From contig NZ_JACVWU010000014.1 of assembly GCF_014596915.1 (NCBI RefSeq), forward strand, positions 62,001 through 126,000: DNA of 64,000 nt, read 5' to 3'. Shown here in pieces: positions 33,859 through 40,992 of the stretch. Positions within the stretch are counted from its first letter, which is position 1. Every line of letters begins with the position of its first letter. Under the pieces are notes generated by a model. The model was not told where the DNA came from, made no database searches, and saw nothing but the letters and a program-made list of their open reading frames with translations. The stretch comes from Streptomyces sp. TRM68416. Its GTDB lineage: Bacteria; Actinomycetota; Actinomycetes; Streptomycetales; Streptomycetaceae. A program made the position numbers and the translations under genes.

Positions 33859-34857
33859 CTACTCCGTGCCGATCGCCGGCAGCCGCTCCGGCAGCCCGAG
33901 CCGCGGGAACCGGTCGTCGTGGAACGTGACGATCTCGGTGATCTCCCCGCCGGTGACGCGCAGGACGTCGACCGTCAGCGGCAGGTACGCGGACTCCCGC
34001 TCCTGCCAGAGGTAGAAGGCGACGGCGGGCTGCCGGTTGACGGAGATGGGAACCCCGCGCAGGCCCTTCATGCCCTCGAAGCCGTCCTCGACCCAGTTGC
34101 TCACGACGTTGTCACGGCCGACGTACAGGCCCGGCGTCGGCGGCATCGAGCAGCGGACGTCGTCCCGCAGCATCGCGGTGAGCGCCGGGATGTCCGTGGC
34201 CACGCTGGCGTCGGTGTAGCGGCGCACCAGCTCGCGCGTCCGGGCGTCCTCCTCGGCGCCGGTCCAGTCCTGCCGCTCGGCCGGCAGGTGCTCCCGCAGG
34301 CCGGCGCGGGCCCGCTGCAGCGCGCTGTTCACGGAGTTGACGGAATCCCCGAGGAGCTGGGCGACGTCCTTCGCCGGCCAGCCGAGCACGTCCCGCAGGA
34401 TCAGCACGGCCCGCGGGCGCGGGGCGAGATGCTGGACCGCGACCAGGTAGGCCAGTTCGATCGTCTCCCGCGCGACGGCGACGCTCTCCGGCCCGGCCGC
34501 GTCGTCCGCGGGCAGCTCGTCCAGCAGCCGGTCCGGGTAGGGCTGCAACCACGGCACCTCGCCGCCGGTCGCGGGCTCCGGGCGGCACTTGGCGAGCAGG
34601 TCCAGGCAGGCGTTGGTGGCGATCCGGTACAGCCAGGCCCGGAACGTCGACCGCCCCTCGAAGGTCTCCCGCCGCCGCCAGGCACGCAGAAACGTCTCCT
34701 GCACGGTGTCCTCGGCGTCCTCGAACGACCCGAGCAGCCGGTAGCAGTGCACGTGCAGCTCCCGCCGGTGCCGCTCCGCCAGCCCCGAGAACGTCGGCTC
34801 GTCGACCTCGCCCAGCCCGCTCACGCCCAGCTCCTCCAGCCGTGTGTCCGTACTCAT
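33859..34857 (-). CDS. ECF sigma factor with SnoaL-like C-terminal domain
   Basis: 332 residues from ATG 34857. Sigma region 2 at about 25-95 (HCYRLLGSFEDAEDTVQETFLRAWRR), region 4 at about 140-200 (APRPRAVLILRDVLGWPAKDVAQLLGDSVNSVNSALQRARAGL), then a SnoaL-like domain from about 210 (LVRRYTDASVATDIPALTAML, ITEIVTFHDDRFPRLGLPERLPAIG). This layout is that of the TIGR02960-type ECF sigma factors whose C-terminal domain, not an anti-sigma factor, controls activity. Its direct downstream neighbour is a small protein of unknown role. Confidence 0.85.
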   Translation of the reverse strand: MSTDTRLEELGVSGLGEVDEPTFSGLAERHRRELHVHCYRLLGSFEDAEDTVQETFLRAWRRRETFEGRSTFRAWLYRIATNACLDLLAKCRPEPATGGEVPWLQPYPDRLLDELPADDAAGPESVAVARETIELAYLVAVQHLAPRPRAVLILRDVLGWPAKDVAQLLGDSVNSVNSALQRARAGLREHLPAERQDWTGAEEDARTRELVRRYTDASVATDIPALTAMLRDDVRCSMPPTPGLYVGRDNVVSNWVEDGFEGMKGLRGVPISVNRQPAVAFYLWQERESAYLPLTVDVLRVTGGEITEIVTFHDDRFPRLGLPERLPAIGTE

Positions 34858-35084: not shown

Positions 35085-36080
35085 ATGTTGGGCAGGTTGT
35101 TCGGCAGGGGTGGTGCGGAGAGACCGGGGGCGGATCCGCACGCCCTGCCCGTCCCGCGCAGGCGGAAGAACGGGGTGTACTCCCTGCGCGCGCTGGGGGA
35201 CGCGCGCGTGCTCGCGCTCGTCGAGGCCGCCGACGCGGGGGACTGGCAGGCGGTCAAGGCGGCACTCGCCCCCTTCGACCTCGGCCGCCAGCAGGCGGTC
35301 CTGGGGCAGCTGGCCGTGCTGGACGGTGTGGAGGAGTGGGCCGTCCGGGCCGCCGAGCAGGACAAGGGCGACAAGGACCTCCGGGCGACCGCCCTGCTGA
35401 TCTCGGGTGCGCGCCATGTCAGCTGGGGCTGGGAGGCGCGCACGTCCGCGCGTGCCGTGGACGTCAGCCGCGAGCAGTGGCAGACCTTCTACGAGCGGCT
35501 GCGCATCGCCGAGGAGCACCTGCTCGAAGCCGCCGAGCTGCGGCCCGACTGGATCACGCCCTGGCGCCATCTGCTCACCTCGGGACGCGGCATGTCCGTC
35601 GATGACAGCGTCCAGGAGGCCCGGCTCGCGGCCGGTCTGCGCCGTGATCCGCTGAACCTGGACATCCACCTGGAGTGGGTGGCGCACCTCCAGCCCCGCT
35701 GGGGCGGAGAACCGGGCCAGGCCCTGGAGTTCGCCCAGAAGGCCTTCGCCGCCGCGCCCGACGGGCACCGGCTCGGCTGTGTCGTCGCCATGGCGCGCAT
35801 CGAGGAGTGGGTGGAGTCCGATGACAGCGACTGCCTGCAGCAGCCGCGGATCCGGGCCGAGTTGAGGGAGGCCGCGGAGCGCAGCATCCTGCACCACGCG
35901 TACGAGCGCCGCCTGGGCTGGCAGGGCGACTACAACATCTTCGCCATGGCCCTCTCGCTGGCGGGCAGCAGCACGGCCTCCAATGTCTTCCGCGAGCTGG
36001 AGGGTGTGATCACCGACTGGCCGTGGACCTTCATGGCGAATCCGCAGACAGCGTACGCGCGCTTCCGCAAGGCCTTCTGA
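35085..36080 (+). CDS. TPR-like alpha-solenoid protein
   Basis: 331 residues from ATG 35085 with GGGGAGGG just upstream. The N-terminus is basic and Gly-rich (MLGRLFGRGGAERPGADPHALPVPRR), the rest helical with solenoid features: DAGDWQAVKAALAPFDLGRQQAVLGQLAVLDG, FYERLRIAEEHLLEAAELRPDWITPW, AAGLRRDPLNLDIHLEWVAHLQ. Cysteine pair CLQQPR and later residues are unremarkable. It precedes the Hsp90-family gene on the same strand, separated by 134 bases with a 15-bp tandem repeat. It may take part in the same chaperone system, but that is only context. Confidence 0.65.
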   Translation: MLGRLFGRGGAERPGADPHALPVPRRRKNGVYSLRALGDARVLALVEAADAGDWQAVKAALAPFDLGRQQAVLGQLAVLDGVEEWAVRAAEQDKGDKDLRATALLISGARHVSWGWEARTSARAVDVSREQWQTFYERLRIAEEHLLEAAELRPDWITPWRHLLTSGRGMSVDDSVQEARLAAGLRRDPLNLDIHLEWVAHLQPRWGGEPGQALEFAQKAFAAAPDGHRLGCVVAMARIEEWVESDDSDCLQQPRIRAELREAAERSILHHAYERRLGWQGDYNIFAMALSLAGSSTASNVFRELEGVITDWPWTFMANPQTAYARFRKAF

Positions 36081-36090
36081 GCCCCCGCCG

Positions 36091-36150
36091 GCACCGCCGT
36101 CGCCCGCACCGCCGTCGCCCGCACCGCCTTCGCCCGCACCGCCGTCGCCC
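36091..36150. repeat. Four tandem 15-bp units before the Hsp90-like gene
   Basis: GCACCGCCGTCGCCC at 36091-36105, 36106-36120, 36121-36135 (one base different, CTT for CGT) and 36136-36150. It begins 11 bases after the previous stop and ends 64 bases before the Hsp90-like start. Confidence 0.85.
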
Positions 36151-36214
36151 GCCTCCGGCCGGCCCCTGCGGACCACCGCCGACCACCGCCGTTCCCTTCA
36201 CCCCGGACTGACCC

Positions 36215-38053
36215 ATGCCCCTGCGTGACACCTCCGCCCACCACACCTCCGCCGACCGCACCTTCCAGGTCGACCTGCGCGGCCTGGTGGACCTCCTCTC
36301 CCACCACCTCTACTCCAGCCCCCGCGTCTACCTGCGCGAACTGATGCAGAACGCGGTGGACGCGCTCACCGCCCGGCACGCCCTCGAACCGGCCGCCTCC
36401 CTGGGCATCCGCCTCTACGCCGACGGCACGGTCGTACGCGTCGAGGACGACGGCGTCGGTCTCACCGAGGCCGACGTGCACACCTTCCTCGCCACGATCG
36501 GCCGCAGCAGCAAGCGCACCGAGCACATAGCCGAGCAGCGCGCCGACTTCATCGGCCAGTTCGGCATCGGCCTGCTCTCCTGCTTCCTGGTCGCCGACGA
36601 GATCCACGTCCTCAGCCGCTCCGCCCGTACCCCCGACGCCCCGGCCGTGGAGTGGCGTGGCCGCGGCGACGGCAGCTACACCGTCCGCACCCTGCCCGCC
36701 TCCGCCCGCCCCCGGCCCGGCACCACCGTCACGCTCACCCCGCGCGCCGACGCGGGCGAGTGGACCCGCCCGGCCCAGGTGCACGCGCTGGCCCGGCACT
36801 TCGGCTCCCTGCTGCGCCACCCGGTGACCTTCGACGACGGCAGCGGCGGCCCGGGCGTGCCCGTGAACCCCGACCCCGCGCCCTGGGCGCTCACCCACCC
36901 CACCCCGGGCGCCCGGTCGCGTGCGCTGGCCGCGTACGGCGAGGAGGTCTTCGGGTTCAAGCCGCTGGACACCATCGAGCTGGACCTGCCGGCCGTGGGC
37001 CTGAAGGGCATCGCCTGCGTGCTACCGGAGGCGGTGCCGGCCGGCCGCCGCCACGGCCACCGCGTGCACGTCAAGGGCATGCTGCTGTCCGAGCAGGCCG
37101 AGGAGATCCTGCCCGACTGGGCGTTCTTCGTCCGCTGCGTCGTCGACGCCGAGAGCCTGCGCCCGACGGCCTCCCGAGAGTCCCTCTACGAGGACGACAC
37201 CCTCGCCGCCGTCCGCGACGCCCTCGCCGACCGGCTGCGCGCGTGGATCGCCCGCGCCGCCGCCAGCGACCCCGAGCTGCTCCACCGCTTCCTCCAGGCC
37301 CACCACCTGGCCGTGAAGTCGCTCGCCGTGCACGACGACGAGATCCTGCGGATGCTGCTGCCCTGGCTGCCGTTCGAGACCACCGACGGGCACTGCACCC
37401 TCGACGAGTTCGCGCGCACCCACCGCACCGTGCTGGTGACGTCCAGCGTGGAGGAGTTCCGGCAGGTCGCCGCGATCGCCTCGGCCGCCGGACTCGGCGT
37501 CGTCAACGGCGGCTACACCTACGACCGCGAACTGGTCCACCGGCTCCCCGAGATCAGGCCCGAGGTCACCGTCGCCGACCTCGACCCGGCGACCCTCACC
37601 GCCCACCTCGACCCCGTCGACCGGGAGACGGAACTCGCCGCCGCGGCCTACCTCGCCCAGGCCCGTGACGCCCTCGCCGTCTTCGACTGCGATGTCGCGC
37701 TGCGCACCTTCCAGCCCGCCTCGGCGCCGGCCCTGCTGGTCGACAGCCGCGAGGCCCGGCACGAGCGCACCCGCTCCCAACTGGCCCGGGAACAGGACGG
37801 CGGGCTGTGGGGCGACATCCTGGGCGCCCTGCGCCAGGAGGCACCGCGCGCCCAGCTGATCCTCAACCAGCTCAACCCCCTGGTGCGCACCGCCGTAGCC
37901 ATCGACGAACCCGAGCTGGCCCGCACCAGCGCCGAAGCCCTCTACGGGCAGGCCGCGATGCTGTCCCGGCGTCCGCTCCGGCCCGCCGAATCCAGCCTCA
38001 TCAACCGCTCCTTCCTCGACCTCCTCGCCCACGCCCTCCGCAAGGACAGCTGA
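36215..38053 (+). CDS. Hsp90-family chaperone (HtpG-like)
   Basis: 612 residues from ATG 36215. GHKL ATPase domain: YSSPRVYLRELMQNAVDALTAR with the conserved Glu and Asn, VRVEDDGVGLTEADVHTFLATIGRSSK, and FIGQFGIGLLSCFLVAD (equal to the GQFGVGFYS loop). Middle domain with WAFFVRCVVDAESLRPTASRESLYED, where SRE is the catalytic-arginine motif. Size is close to E. coli HtpG (624), so the chain is complete, but the sequence is clearly divergent. There is no MEEVD-like C-terminus (it ends RKDS). The stop is two bases before the TPR gene start, so the two are coupled; a TPR partner is what cytosolic Hsp90 has in eukaryotes. Confidence 0.88.
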   Translation: MPLRDTSAHHTSADRTFQVDLRGLVDLLSHHLYSSPRVYLRELMQNAVDALTARHALEPAASLGIRLYADGTVVRVEDDGVGLTEADVHTFLATIGRSSKRTEHIAEQRADFIGQFGIGLLSCFLVADEIHVLSRSARTPDAPAVEWRGRGDGSYTVRTLPASARPRPGTTVTLTPRADAGEWTRPAQVHALARHFGSLLRHPVTFDDGSGGPGVPVNPDPAPWALTHPTPGARSRALAAYGEEVFGFKPLDTIELDLPAVGLKGIACVLPEAVPAGRRHGHRVHVKGMLLSEQAEEILPDWAFFVRCVVDAESLRPTASRESLYEDDTLAAVRDALADRLRAWIARAAASDPELLHRFLQAHHLAVKSLAVHDDEILRMLLPWLPFETTDGHCTLDEFARTHRTVLVTSSVEEFRQVAAIASAAGLGVVNGGYTYDRELVHRLPEIRPEVTVADLDPATLTAHLDPVDRETELAAAAYLAQARDALAVFDCDVALRTFQPASAPALLVDSREARHERTRSQLAREQDGGLWGDILGALRQEAPRAQLILNQLNPLVRTAVAIDEPELARTSAEALYGQAAMLSRRPLRPAESSLINRSFLDLLAHALRKDS

Positions 38054-38055
38054 CG

Positions 38056-40992
38056 ATGCCGACGACCGCACCCCAGAACACCGACGAGCTGTACCAGGCG
38101 CTGCAGGACAACGACCGGCGCCCCTACGGCCGTACCCGCACCGTCACCGCCGAGGAACTCGTCGACGCCGCCGAGCAGTTCGGCGAGCCCGCCCCGCTGA
38201 TCCACGCCCTCCTCGAACTCCAGGAGGCGTACACCTACGGCTCCGAGCCCCGGAAGTCGCCCGTCGTCTTCGCCCGCCTGCTCACCCTCTTCGACGAGCA
38301 GCCCGACGCCTTCGACGAGCGCCTGAGCCACATGGTGTTCTGGCGGTTCAAGTGGGTGTCCCACGCCCTGCGCCAACTGCCCGAGATACCGCTGGCCAGC
38401 CTGCGCCAGTGGCTCACCGAGATGCGCGACCGGTACGAGAAGGCCGGTCACGGCCTCCAGCCCTACTACGGGCAGGCCTACCAGCTCGCCGCCCACGTCG
38501 GCGAGGACACCGCCCTCGCCTACGAGCTGTGGGCGGGCCGCACCCGCACCCGGTTCAGCGACTGCGAGGCCTGCGAGACCTGCGAGCGCGCCCTGTACCA
38601 CCTCGCCGCGGGCGACGACGAACGGGCGCTGAGGGCCTGGGAGCCGGTGCTGGGCGGCAAGGAGTCCTGTCAGGAGGAGCCGTCCCGTTCCATCTCGCAC
38701 GCCCTGCTGCCACTGCTGCGCACCGGCCGCACCGACCGGGCCCGCGAACTGCACCTGGCCGGCTACCGCGGCTGCCGCCGCAACCCCTCGATGTCCCAGG
38801 AGGTCGGCCGGCACCTGGAGTTCTGCGCGCTGACCGGCAACGAGGCGCGCGGCCTGGAACTGCTCGCCGAGAACCGGATCCTGTTCGACGAGGTCGACTC
38901 GCCGCTGGACCAGCTCGGCTTCCTCACCGGTGTGGAGGTCCTCCTCCAGCGCGTCGAACTCCTCGGCCACGGCGAACTGCCCGCCACCGGATACGCGGGC
39001 CGCGGCTGGACGGTGTCCGCACTGCGCGCCGAGGTGCGGGGCCGCGCCGACGACCTCGCCGCCCGCTTCGACGCCCGCAACGGAACCACCGCCCACAGCG
39101 ACCGCCGCAGGGCCCGTCTGGAGCGTGCCCCGCTCCTGGACGCGCTGGAACTGACCCTGCGCGTCCGCAGCCTCGACGACATGGCTCCGGCCGCTCCGGT
39201 CGCCGCGCCGCCCGCCGCCCGTACGGCCGCCGCCGTCCCCGACGCGCTGCCCGAACTGATCCTCCGGGCACGGACCTTGGACGACGAGGGCCACCCTGAC
39301 GCGCGCGCCTGCTGGGACCGACTGCGCACGCGCGTCGCCGCCCGCGACTACGCCCACCCCGACGACCCGGCCGTCGGTCCGCTCGACCGACTGCGCGCGG
39401 ACCTGCTGGCCGAAGAGGCGAGCCGGATGGTGGACAGGAACGAGTTCGCCGACGCCGCCGACCTGTTCGAGGAGGCCGCGGCCCTCTACGACGACGCCGG
39501 CACCCCCGGCCACGCGACGCTCGCCCGCGTCAGCGCCCTGCTCGCCACCGCCGAGTTCACGGTCCGGGACGCCGAGGGCGACGCGGCCGAGGCCGCGTTC
39601 ACCACCGCCCACGCCTCCATGGTCCGCCTGCACGAGGAGACCCCCGGACTCGCTCCGCACCACGAGGCCCGGCTGCTGAGGAGGCGGGTGACCGCGCTCG
39701 CGCTGCGCGCGCAGGGCACGCGGGACGAGGGCCATGTCGCCGCAGTCTTCGCCGAGATCGACCTGCTGCACGAGTTCGCCACCCGGCACGACGTCGTCGC
39801 GCAGATCTCCGGCGCCCTGCTGCTGCGGGCCAGCACCCACGCCATCTCCGGCGACCTGCCCGCCGCGGTCGCCGAGATCGGTGCCCTCCTGGACCGGCTG
39901 AAGGCGCACGGCCCCGCCTGGCACCTGCCCCACACGCTCGGGCTGCGCGGCCGGTTCCAGCTCGGCCTGCGGGACGCGCAGGCCGCCCACGCGGACCTGA
40001 CCGAAGGCCTGCGCCTGGCCGCCGACTGGCCGGCCGACACCATCGACACCGCCCGCCTGTACGGCGATCTGGCCGAGGCCGCCCTGCAGTTGGGCCGCCC
40101 CGACGAGGCCCTGCGGCACCTGACGCGCTCCGCGGAGCTGGAGCTTCGCCACGGCAGCCGTGTCGACGCGTTCTGCGCCTACAGCAACGCGGCCCAGCTC
40201 GGCCTCGACCTGGGCCGCACCGAGGACTGCATCGCCCTGCTCGACTCCCTGCTGACCGAACCGGACGTCGCCTCGGGGGAACTGGACGACCGGCTCACCG
40301 CTCAACTGCGCCTGACCCGGGCCCGCGCGCTGTACGCGGGGGAGGACCTCAAGGCCGCCACGACGGAGTTCGTCGCCCTCGCCGCCGAGTCGGCAGGCTG
40401 GGACGACGACCCGGGCAGCCACGCCATGATCGCCGCGGAGACGGCCGTACTCCTCGGCGAGTCCGGCGAGTTCGGCCGGGCCCGCGAGGCGGCGGACCAG
40501 GCCCTCGCCGCCCACGCCCGGGACCCGCGCTACGAGCAGCTCAGCAACTGCCTGCGCGAACTCGGCCGCCTCCAGGCCCAGCAGCAGGGCTCCGACGGCC
40601 TGTCCGACGCGCTCGCCTTCCTCGCCGACGCCGGGCGGATCGCCGACGCGGCCCGCGCCGCCGGATACGAGGCCCGCGGCCGTGCCCTGGACCCCGCACT
40701 GGCCTACGAGTACGGACGCGTCAACGCCTACGCAGGCCAGTACGAGGACTCCCTGGTCGCCCTGGACCGGGCCCTCACCCTCCTCGGCGGGCCGGGCGGG
40801 GACCGCGACCACGCCGGGGAGTGGGCTGAGTGCGTCCGCCTCGCGGGTGCCGTCGAGGGCATCTACCTGGAGCGCCCCGCCCCCGCCCTCACCCGCGTCG
40901 ACGCGGCGATCACGCGGCTGACCGCCTTGGGGCACACCGCGGAGACCGAGTCGCTGAGGTCCCTGGCGACCCGGCTGCGCGACGAGGAGTGA
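38056..40992 (+). CDS. Large TPR protein coupled to the Hsp90-like gene
   Basis: 978 residues from ATG 38056. The whole chain is helical repeat sequence of the TPR kind, for example EEAAALYDDAGTPGHATLARVSALL, LYGDLAEAALQLGRPDEALRHLTRSAEL and AQLGLDLGRTEDCIALLDSLL. The N-terminal third has a different solenoid with paired cysteines (FSDCEACETCERALYHL, then KESCQEEP). A Pro/Ala-rich linker sits near residue 375. No enzyme motif. Starting two bases after the Hsp90-like stop, it is most likely a cofactor or client adaptor of that chaperone. Confidence 0.8.
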   Translation: MPTTAPQNTDELYQALQDNDRRPYGRTRTVTAEELVDAAEQFGEPAPLIHALLELQEAYTYGSEPRKSPVVFARLLTLFDEQPDAFDERLSHMVFWRFKWVSHALRQLPEIPLASLRQWLTEMRDRYEKAGHGLQPYYGQAYQLAAHVGEDTALAYELWAGRTRTRFSDCEACETCERALYHLAAGDDERALRAWEPVLGGKESCQEEPSRSISHALLPLLRTGRTDRARELHLAGYRGCRRNPSMSQEVGRHLEFCALTGNEARGLELLAENRILFDEVDSPLDQLGFLTGVEVLLQRVELLGHGELPATGYAGRGWTVSALRAEVRGRADDLAARFDARNGTTAHSDRRRARLERAPLLDALELTLRVRSLDDMAPAAPVAAPPAARTAAAVPDALPELILRARTLDDEGHPDARACWDRLRTRVAARDYAHPDDPAVGPLDRLRADLLAEEASRMVDRNEFADAADLFEEAAALYDDAGTPGHATLARVSALLATAEFTVRDAEGDAAEAAFTTAHASMVRLHEETPGLAPHHEARLLRRRVTALALRAQGTRDEGHVAAVFAEIDLLHEFATRHDVVAQISGALLLRASTHAISGDLPAAVAEIGALLDRLKAHGPAWHLPHTLGLRGRFQLGLRDAQAAHADLTEGLRLAADWPADTIDTARLYGDLAEAALQLGRPDEALRHLTRSAELELRHGSRVDAFCAYSNAAQLGLDLGRTEDCIALLDSLLTEPDVASGELDDRLTAQLRLTRARALYAGEDLKAATTEFVALAAESAGWDDDPGSHAMIAAETAVLLGESGEFGRAREAADQALAAHARDPRYEQLSNCLRELGRLQAQQQGSDGLSDALAFLADAGRIADAARAAGYEARGRALDPALAYEYGRVNAYAGQYEDSLVALDRALTLLGGPGGDRDHAGEWAECVRLAGAVEGIYLERPAPALTRVDAAITRLTALGHTAETESLRSLATRLRDEE

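Follow-up and report, generated by a model that had tools for sequence, protein, structure and literature searches.

Eukaryotic Hsp90 works with the TPR co-chaperones Hop, FKBP51/52 and PP5. According to the accessible part of Press et al. 2013 (PMC3708813), bacterial Hsp90 is usually treated as a single protein without obligate co-chaperones, no obligate co-chaperone had been identified for it, and the analysis presented there concerns hsp90A only, leaving out hsp90B and hsp90C. The available sections of Chen et al. 2006 (PMC1525184) define Groups A, B and C of HtpG, assign Group C to Firmicutes, Actinobacteria and Bacteroidetes, and describe S. coelicolor and B. fragilis as having two HtpG copies each, which belong to different groups. 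A partner gene for Group C/hsp90C is not mentioned in the accessible portions of either article, and the available text of a 2012 review of Hsp90-targeting antibiotics states that there was no evidence of a specific HtpG function in a streptomycete (PMC3603443).

In the open-access literature, searched by titles and the beginnings of abstracts, with subscription papers and preprints outside the scope, we found no report of the Hsp90-partner pair described here, and phrases for a co-chaperone of bacterial Hsp90 or of HtpG retrieved no paper. The partner is annotated as "hypothetical protein" in the records of Streptomyces globosus and Listeria. We take lmo0942 to be the Listeria gene of the Hsp90 discussed here. 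In the accessible text of a Listeria paper, lmo0942 is mentioned only as a cloned fragment (PMC3534079).

The gene pair and its two proteins

The pair is located on contig C28 of an 8.86 Mb genome, in a window (the whole stretch of 64,000 nucleotides that was analysed, C28:62001-126000) for which a sequence-only reading had proposed an Hsp90-family gene followed, two bases later, by the gene of a 978-residue protein. Open reading frames and profile matches agree on this arrangement (Table 1). Both frames start with ATG on the same strand, the Hsp90 stop is separated from the partner start by two bases, and a putative ribosome-binding site for the partner, identified by eye, sits inside the 3' end of the Hsp90 coding sequence.

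Table 1. Features of the Hsp90-partner locus, in positions of the window
Feature	Position	Strand	Basis
Accessory gene, 331-aa protein, helical-repeat-like by weak family-profile matches	35085..36080	+	neighbour of related pairs
Divergent Hsp90 gene, NF010683/PRK14083 "HSP90 family protein", 612 aa	36215..38053	+	ORF, profile matches
Putative ribosome-binding site (AAGGA) for the partner	38042..38046	+	by eye
Helical-repeat partner gene, 978 aa	38056..40992	+	ORF, predicted structure
Partner domain shared across phyla, about residues 1-361	38056..39138	+	conserved motifs
Cys170 codon to Cys205 codon of the partner, with Cys173 between; candidate metal site	38563..38670	+	alignment
Extra TPR superhelix of the partner, about residues 398-977	39247..40986	+	AlphaFold2 model

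The first protein exceeds the gathering thresholds of PF00183, HATPase_c and HATPase_c_3, and its score of 825 bits over residues 12-611 places it in the NF010683 family (cut-off 455), while the canonical HtpG model NF003555 yields 179.4 bits, under its cut-off of 371. It lacks both IGQFGVGFY and PLN, the signatures of Group A. Judged by these profiles and motifs, it is a divergent Hsp90 of the NF010683 type and not a canonical HtpG. The structural model (pLDDT 89.1) predicts a complete Hsp90 fold with N-terminal, middle and C-terminal domains, and Foldseek aligns about 640 columns of it with chains of TRAP1, HtpG and Hsp90 (TM about 0.6, E to 3.7e-33); the rmsd of 8-13 Å in these matches indicates that the domain arrangement differs. 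The protein has Glu42, Asn46, Asp49, Asp78, GQFG at 114-117 and Arg321. In an alignment with relatives from 55 of 80 loci (the best 80 of 583), Glu42, Asn46, Asp49, Asp78, Gly114, Gly117, Gly119 and Arg321 are invariant, and we take these invariant residues to serve the ATPase, following known Hsp90 biochemistry. Mapping by spacing and alignment shows that all 17 Hsp90 marker residues in Table 4 of Chen et al. 2006 are also present: Y33, R41 E42 L43, N46, D49, G80, G82, G114 Q115 F116 G117, G169, P300 and S320 R321 E322. The absence of a C-terminal MEEVD, pointed out from the sequence alone, is borne out by the end of the protein (...HALRKDS), and no common C-terminal tail was found by eye among the 55 relatives.

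The second protein is predicted by AlphaFold2 (pLDDT 91.2) to be a two-part solenoid built almost wholly of helical hairpins. Its proposed TPR nature stands as far as the fold is concerned, since residues 396-735 of the model match LGN TPR chains (Z 24.8, rmsd 6.0, 309 aligned), but not at the level of sequence, where the best Pfam TPR match, TPR_12 with 28.1 bits, falls short of the gathering cut-off of 30.1. In structure searches with the whole model, the C-terminal TPR region dominates the matches. Four motifs, W..KW, DCxACE, GKxxC...P and FDxRN, characterize the N-terminal domain. None of 23 members of this domain has a match in NCBIfam, and in Pfam the same 23 give generic TPR models, each in at most five members, plus one RPN7 match. 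Compared with solved structures, a profile of the domain matches TPR proteins only weakly (best E 0.0024); designed TPRs, LGN and OGT are among them, as is a chain of Hop (STIP1) with E 0.022. Long partners with the C-terminal extension occur at 10 of the 12 actinobacterial loci among the best 80 of 583 (one is just 476 aa long), the two other loci being cut by contig ends; two Oscillospiraceae partners among the best 80 of 583 are likewise long.

The sequence-only reading had also pointed to a further solenoid protein encoded just upstream and had suggested that with the pair it may form an uncharacterised Hsp90 system. Of the 52 related pairs, 22 do have a homologue of this gene as their immediate upstream neighbour. 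Its description as a solenoid fares less well: weak TPR and DUF4034 matches were found in some members of its family and none in the window protein itself, and homology to the partner domain was undetectable (hhalign probability 0.7%). The upstream gene belongs as an accessory to one pair type and stands outside the core unit, so that of the proposed system the conserved Hsp90-partner pair remains, and the third gene as a core part does not. The upstream gene is adjoined, in divergent orientation, by a gene of a sigma-70-family factor (33859-34857, minus strand) with a SnoaL-like C-terminal match under the cut-off, and the spacer that separates the upstream gene from the Hsp90 gene contains a 15-base tandem repeat of 4.5 copies (window 36086-36152). 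In a search of the sequence preceding the Hsp90 match (up to 400 bases) at 80 loci (the best 80 of 583), the best matches to the CIRCE, HAIR and CtsR consensus sequences were no better than those in shuffled sequence, and classical heat-shock control is therefore unsupported.

Distribution and co-inheritance of the pair

Among 61 related genomes, Hsp90 above the NF010683 cut-off was found in 38 and the partner in 38, and the two sets are identical. At all 52 places with an over-cut-off Hsp90, the partner follows directly downstream on the same strand, with 6 to 129 bases between the matches. Three of these genomes, from one genus (G044, G045 and G047), have, in addition to paired copies, two neighbouring divergent partner domains of 56-106 bits, and no Hsp90 match was found near them within 14-17 kb (L178, L182 and L181). 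The remaining irregularities concern fragments and contig ends: one partner copy starts at a contig start (G050); the partner match of G033 is a C-terminal piece only, and two further C-terminal matches occur in G051 (contigs C60 and C150), in each case with no N-domain found; a full-length Hsp90 match on contig C9 of G044 (339 bits, under the cut-off) has no partner beside it on a contig that ends about 1.9 kb downstream; and G028 has an Hsp90 piece truncated at a contig edge, with no partner match in the genome.

The pair extends far beyond these relatives. A contig scan with an alignment of the Hsp90 only yielded 80 loci, the best 80 of 583 relatives, in which eight phyla are represented; assigned by hand, they are mainly Bacillota (38), Actinomycetota (12), Planctomycetota (10) and Myxococcota (10), with smaller contributions from Bacteroidota (3), Acidobacteriota (2), Pseudomonadota (2) and Deltaproteobacteria/Desulfobacterales (2). 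Within these best 80 of 583, the N-terminal domain of the partner is found at 75 loci (74 before its profile was re-estimated on its own matches), and at 71 it begins on the same strand at most 155 bases past the Hsp90 stop, as counted from the stop to the first aligned codon. More distant partners begin at 228 bases (L118) and 803 bases (L088), one lies 1.4 kb off on the opposite strand (L116), and one is upstream of the Hsp90 (L150). The partner domain was not found in one locus that stops at a contig edge (L112), and at four others (L109, L127, L140 and L141) there is none beside the Hsp90, and the partner is on another contig in all four genomes. All 29 genomes from this set (the best 80 of 583) that were searched whole have the partner. 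Conservation of the gene pair, which the sequence-only reading had set as a check on its proposal, thus extends across phyla, with the partner present even when the genes lie apart.

Among 821 clustered ORFs from the 80 loci (the best 80 of 583), obtained by simple ORF calling that missed some of the Hsp90 and partner genes, the Hsp90 recurs at 71 loci, the partner at 68 and the next clusters at 9. The pair has no third core gene; nothing beyond the Hsp90 and the partner recurs.

Samples drawn across whole phyla show the same co-occurrence. In the window's phylum (246 genomes), over-cut-off Hsp90 occurs in 8 genomes and the partner in 10 (plus one 19-bit match), with 8 shared. In a phylum sample centred on Paenibacillus (249 genomes), there are 4 genomes with the Hsp90 and 4 with the partner (plus one 21-bit match), and they are the same four, including the centre; the partner was found in 0 of the 85 genomes of this sample that have only below-cut-off Hsp90 matches. 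In a sample centred on Myroides (148 genomes), the centre alone has both, and the three other partner matches score 19 to 29 bits. Once overlaps are removed from the pool, the partner is present in 76 of the 76 genomes whose Hsp90 exceeds the cut-off (38 + 6 + 4 + 28). This pool is not random: 29 genomes were picked because of their Hsp90, and the set of relatives consists of close kin. At the level of loci, the partner accompanies 36 of 36 over-cut-off matches (L020-L027 and L050-L077) and was found at none of 22 weaker ones (L028-L049, flanks up to 1.5 kb), which are mostly HtpG-like, judged by score and length. The weaker-match loci and the 85 below-cut-off genomes together indicate that the partner does not track canonical HtpG. 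Of 301 plasmid records with any match to the Hsp90, seven reach a coverage of 80% or more, and three of these seven are from Streptomyces.

On contig C100 of the window's genome there is a paralogous pair, with an Hsp90 60% identical to that of the window and a homologous partner directly downstream, and a PF00183 search of the genome found these two Hsp90s and no others. A further Hsp90/GHKL-like ATPase is suggested at G000:C39:124950-125612, where a frame of 678 aa matches NF010683 weakly (E 5.3e-9). For phylogenetic comparison, 111 of 122 Hsp90-match loci, the window included, fell within the limits on pair length, strand and distance. FastTree trees of the Hsp90 and the partner for these 111 pairs have a distance correlation of 0.93 and 67 of 108 splits in common; none of 200 label permutations exceeds 0.085, but this control is weak, as it takes no account of kinship. 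In Streptomyces and relatives, two pair types appear as identical clades in both trees, one of 19 members (support 1.0 in the Hsp90 tree and 1.0 in the partner tree) and one of 18 members (0.998 and 0.998), and the window genome holds one of each paralogous type. The concordance of the trees and the identity of these clades suggest that the pairs duplicate and descend as units.

What the partner may do

Comparative evidence of this kind makes it very probable that the Hsp90 and its partner constitute an obligate two-protein functional unit. That the partner acts specifically as a co-chaperone or adaptor we regard as an evenly balanced proposition, though it is the role we favour. As the tails of the Hsp90s are variable and carry no MEEVD, docking would probably take place on the body of the Hsp90 rather than on a tail of the MEEVD kind. 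We propose that the partner, bound to the Hsp90 body, would position clients on the ATP-driven clamp or control the clamp cycle, and that the added TPR superhelix, where present, would widen the recruitment of clients. In the complete scenario, a whole Hsp90 branch, here traced in eight phyla, would work as an obligate two-component machine, its partner being a probably metal-binding family of co-chaperones, the docking unrelated to MEEVD and the partner TPR-extended in most actinobacteria; we put this forward tentatively, as something short of an even prospect.

Alternatively, the partner could be a dedicated client, i.e. an effector such as a metal- or peptide-sensing scaffold, which the Hsp90 mainly matures or switches; we incline against this possibility but take it seriously. 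Two of the 10 partner genomes in the window's phylum sample have no over-cut-off Hsp90, while the converse was not found in any of the 76 pooled genomes, an asymmetry that a client would explain no less well than a co-chaperone. In the first of the two (G228, a same-genus genome), the sole NF010683 match is short (E 9.9e-8) and the orphan is a 1070-aa partner of the long type (L158:6802-10014); in the second (G261), there is an HtpG-like match, and the orphan carries a YbjN domain (PF10722) fused to its C-terminus (L159:9005-10609), which also favours a client. So do the divergent unpaired copies described above and the occurrence of several partner copies per Hsp90. In Myroides pelagicus (L146:7761-12209), one Hsp90 is followed by four tandem partner genes, three of them without the cysteines, and there are two copies per Hsp90 at L016, L133, L149 and L156, the extra copies belonging to Listeria, Myroides and gut clostridia. 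In the Listeria monocytogenes record (L016:7797-10607), the Hsp90 gene is followed by two tandem single-domain partners and then by a gene of the SMI1/KNR4 family. Together with the asymmetry of occurrence, the extra copies keep the client model strong. However, both orphans score about 150 bits, compared to 242-343 for the paired partners of the same sample, and solenoid proteins are more typical as adaptors than as clients.

The partner domain has a set of three cysteines, Cys170, Cys173 and Cys205; the helices predicted at 171-184 and 188-199, with a loop to 209, put all three at the same end of one hairpin. Of 153 aligned domains, 7 with under 200 residues and 3 duplicates were left out; among the 143 distinct domains that remained, all three cysteines are present in 129, none in 11 and a mixture in 3, so that the set is gained or lost together in 140. 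A strict all-or-none rule, which held as long as the unpaired loci were left out (128/11/0 of 139), was abandoned, as it is broken by the three mixed copies, which come from the unpaired loci of G044, G045 and G047, where they are the second copies and keep two of the three cysteines. We infer that the cysteines may hold a metal ion such as zinc. Seven of the 11 domains without them stand among several neighbouring copies (three at L146 and one each at L133, L149, L156 and L161), another is an extra copy located elsewhere (L165), and those of L150, L155 and L160 are the sole copy found, so that a metal site would not be universal. The Hsp90 has a conserved Cys492 of its own; a check for coupled cysteines found that it is not lost where the partner is without its set. 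It could be imagined that the three-cysteine site is the core of the function and the pair a stress switch, with the metal or the oxidation state deciding whether the Hsp90 clamp is engaged. The behaviour of the cysteines as a set and their common position on one hairpin would suit such a sensor, but we consider it improbable, given the sole copies without cysteines and the divergent unpaired copies that retain only two of them.

On a Pseudanabaena plasmid (L017:5213-13806), a distant Hsp90-like ATPase of 877 aa (about 25% identity) has TIR, TPR, vWA and AAA genes nearby, and the partner domain was not found there; this locus is possibly a different system. Its TIR, vWA and AAA neighbours are what would recommend a defence or conflict system built on an Hsp90-like ATPase, an explanation we find very unlikely for the pair, as PADLOC matches are confined to the ATPase region, no neighbour genes recur at the 80 loci (the best 80 of 583), and viral contigs give just two partial matches, both to the ATPase region (36% and 31% identity). 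That the two genes are functionally unlinked neighbours, held together by chance or by a common promoter, is scarcely credible, given their conservation in eight phyla and the presence of non-adjacent partners elsewhere in the genome.

Comparison with known Hsp90 systems

The closest described family is NF010683/PRK14083, an NCBIfam equivalog of which the window Hsp90 is a clear member; the model covers the Hsp90 alone. According to the accessible parts of the articles that describe it (PMC1525184, PMC3708813), HtpG Group C/hsp90C likewise consists of short, divergent, non-Group-A bacterial Hsp90s, and the window protein probably belongs to it by length, lineage and the missing Group A signatures. 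A probable hsp90C branch thereby gains a constant candidate partner, whose family is so far unnamed and marked by a conserved set of three cysteines. The function of this Hsp90 and the question of bacterial co-chaperones are reduced to tests on one gene pair.

Canonical HtpG (Hsp90A; NF003555) has the overall fold and the ATPase residues in common with the window Hsp90, but differs by the IGQFGVGFY and PLN motifs, missing from the latter, and by the absence of the partner from the mostly HtpG-like loci (0 of 22). To the eukaryotic Hsp90 and its TPR co-chaperones the likeness is one of analogy, an Hsp90 with a helical-repeat partner; the difference lies in the C-terminus, as the window Hsp90 is without MEEVD and its relatives are without a conserved tail. 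If our proposal is true, bacteria own an ancient Hsp90-solenoid partnership of their own, with a mode of docking unrelated to MEEVD, and most of its actinobacterial members have extended the pair with a client-recruiting TPR superhelix, and some with a third solenoid.
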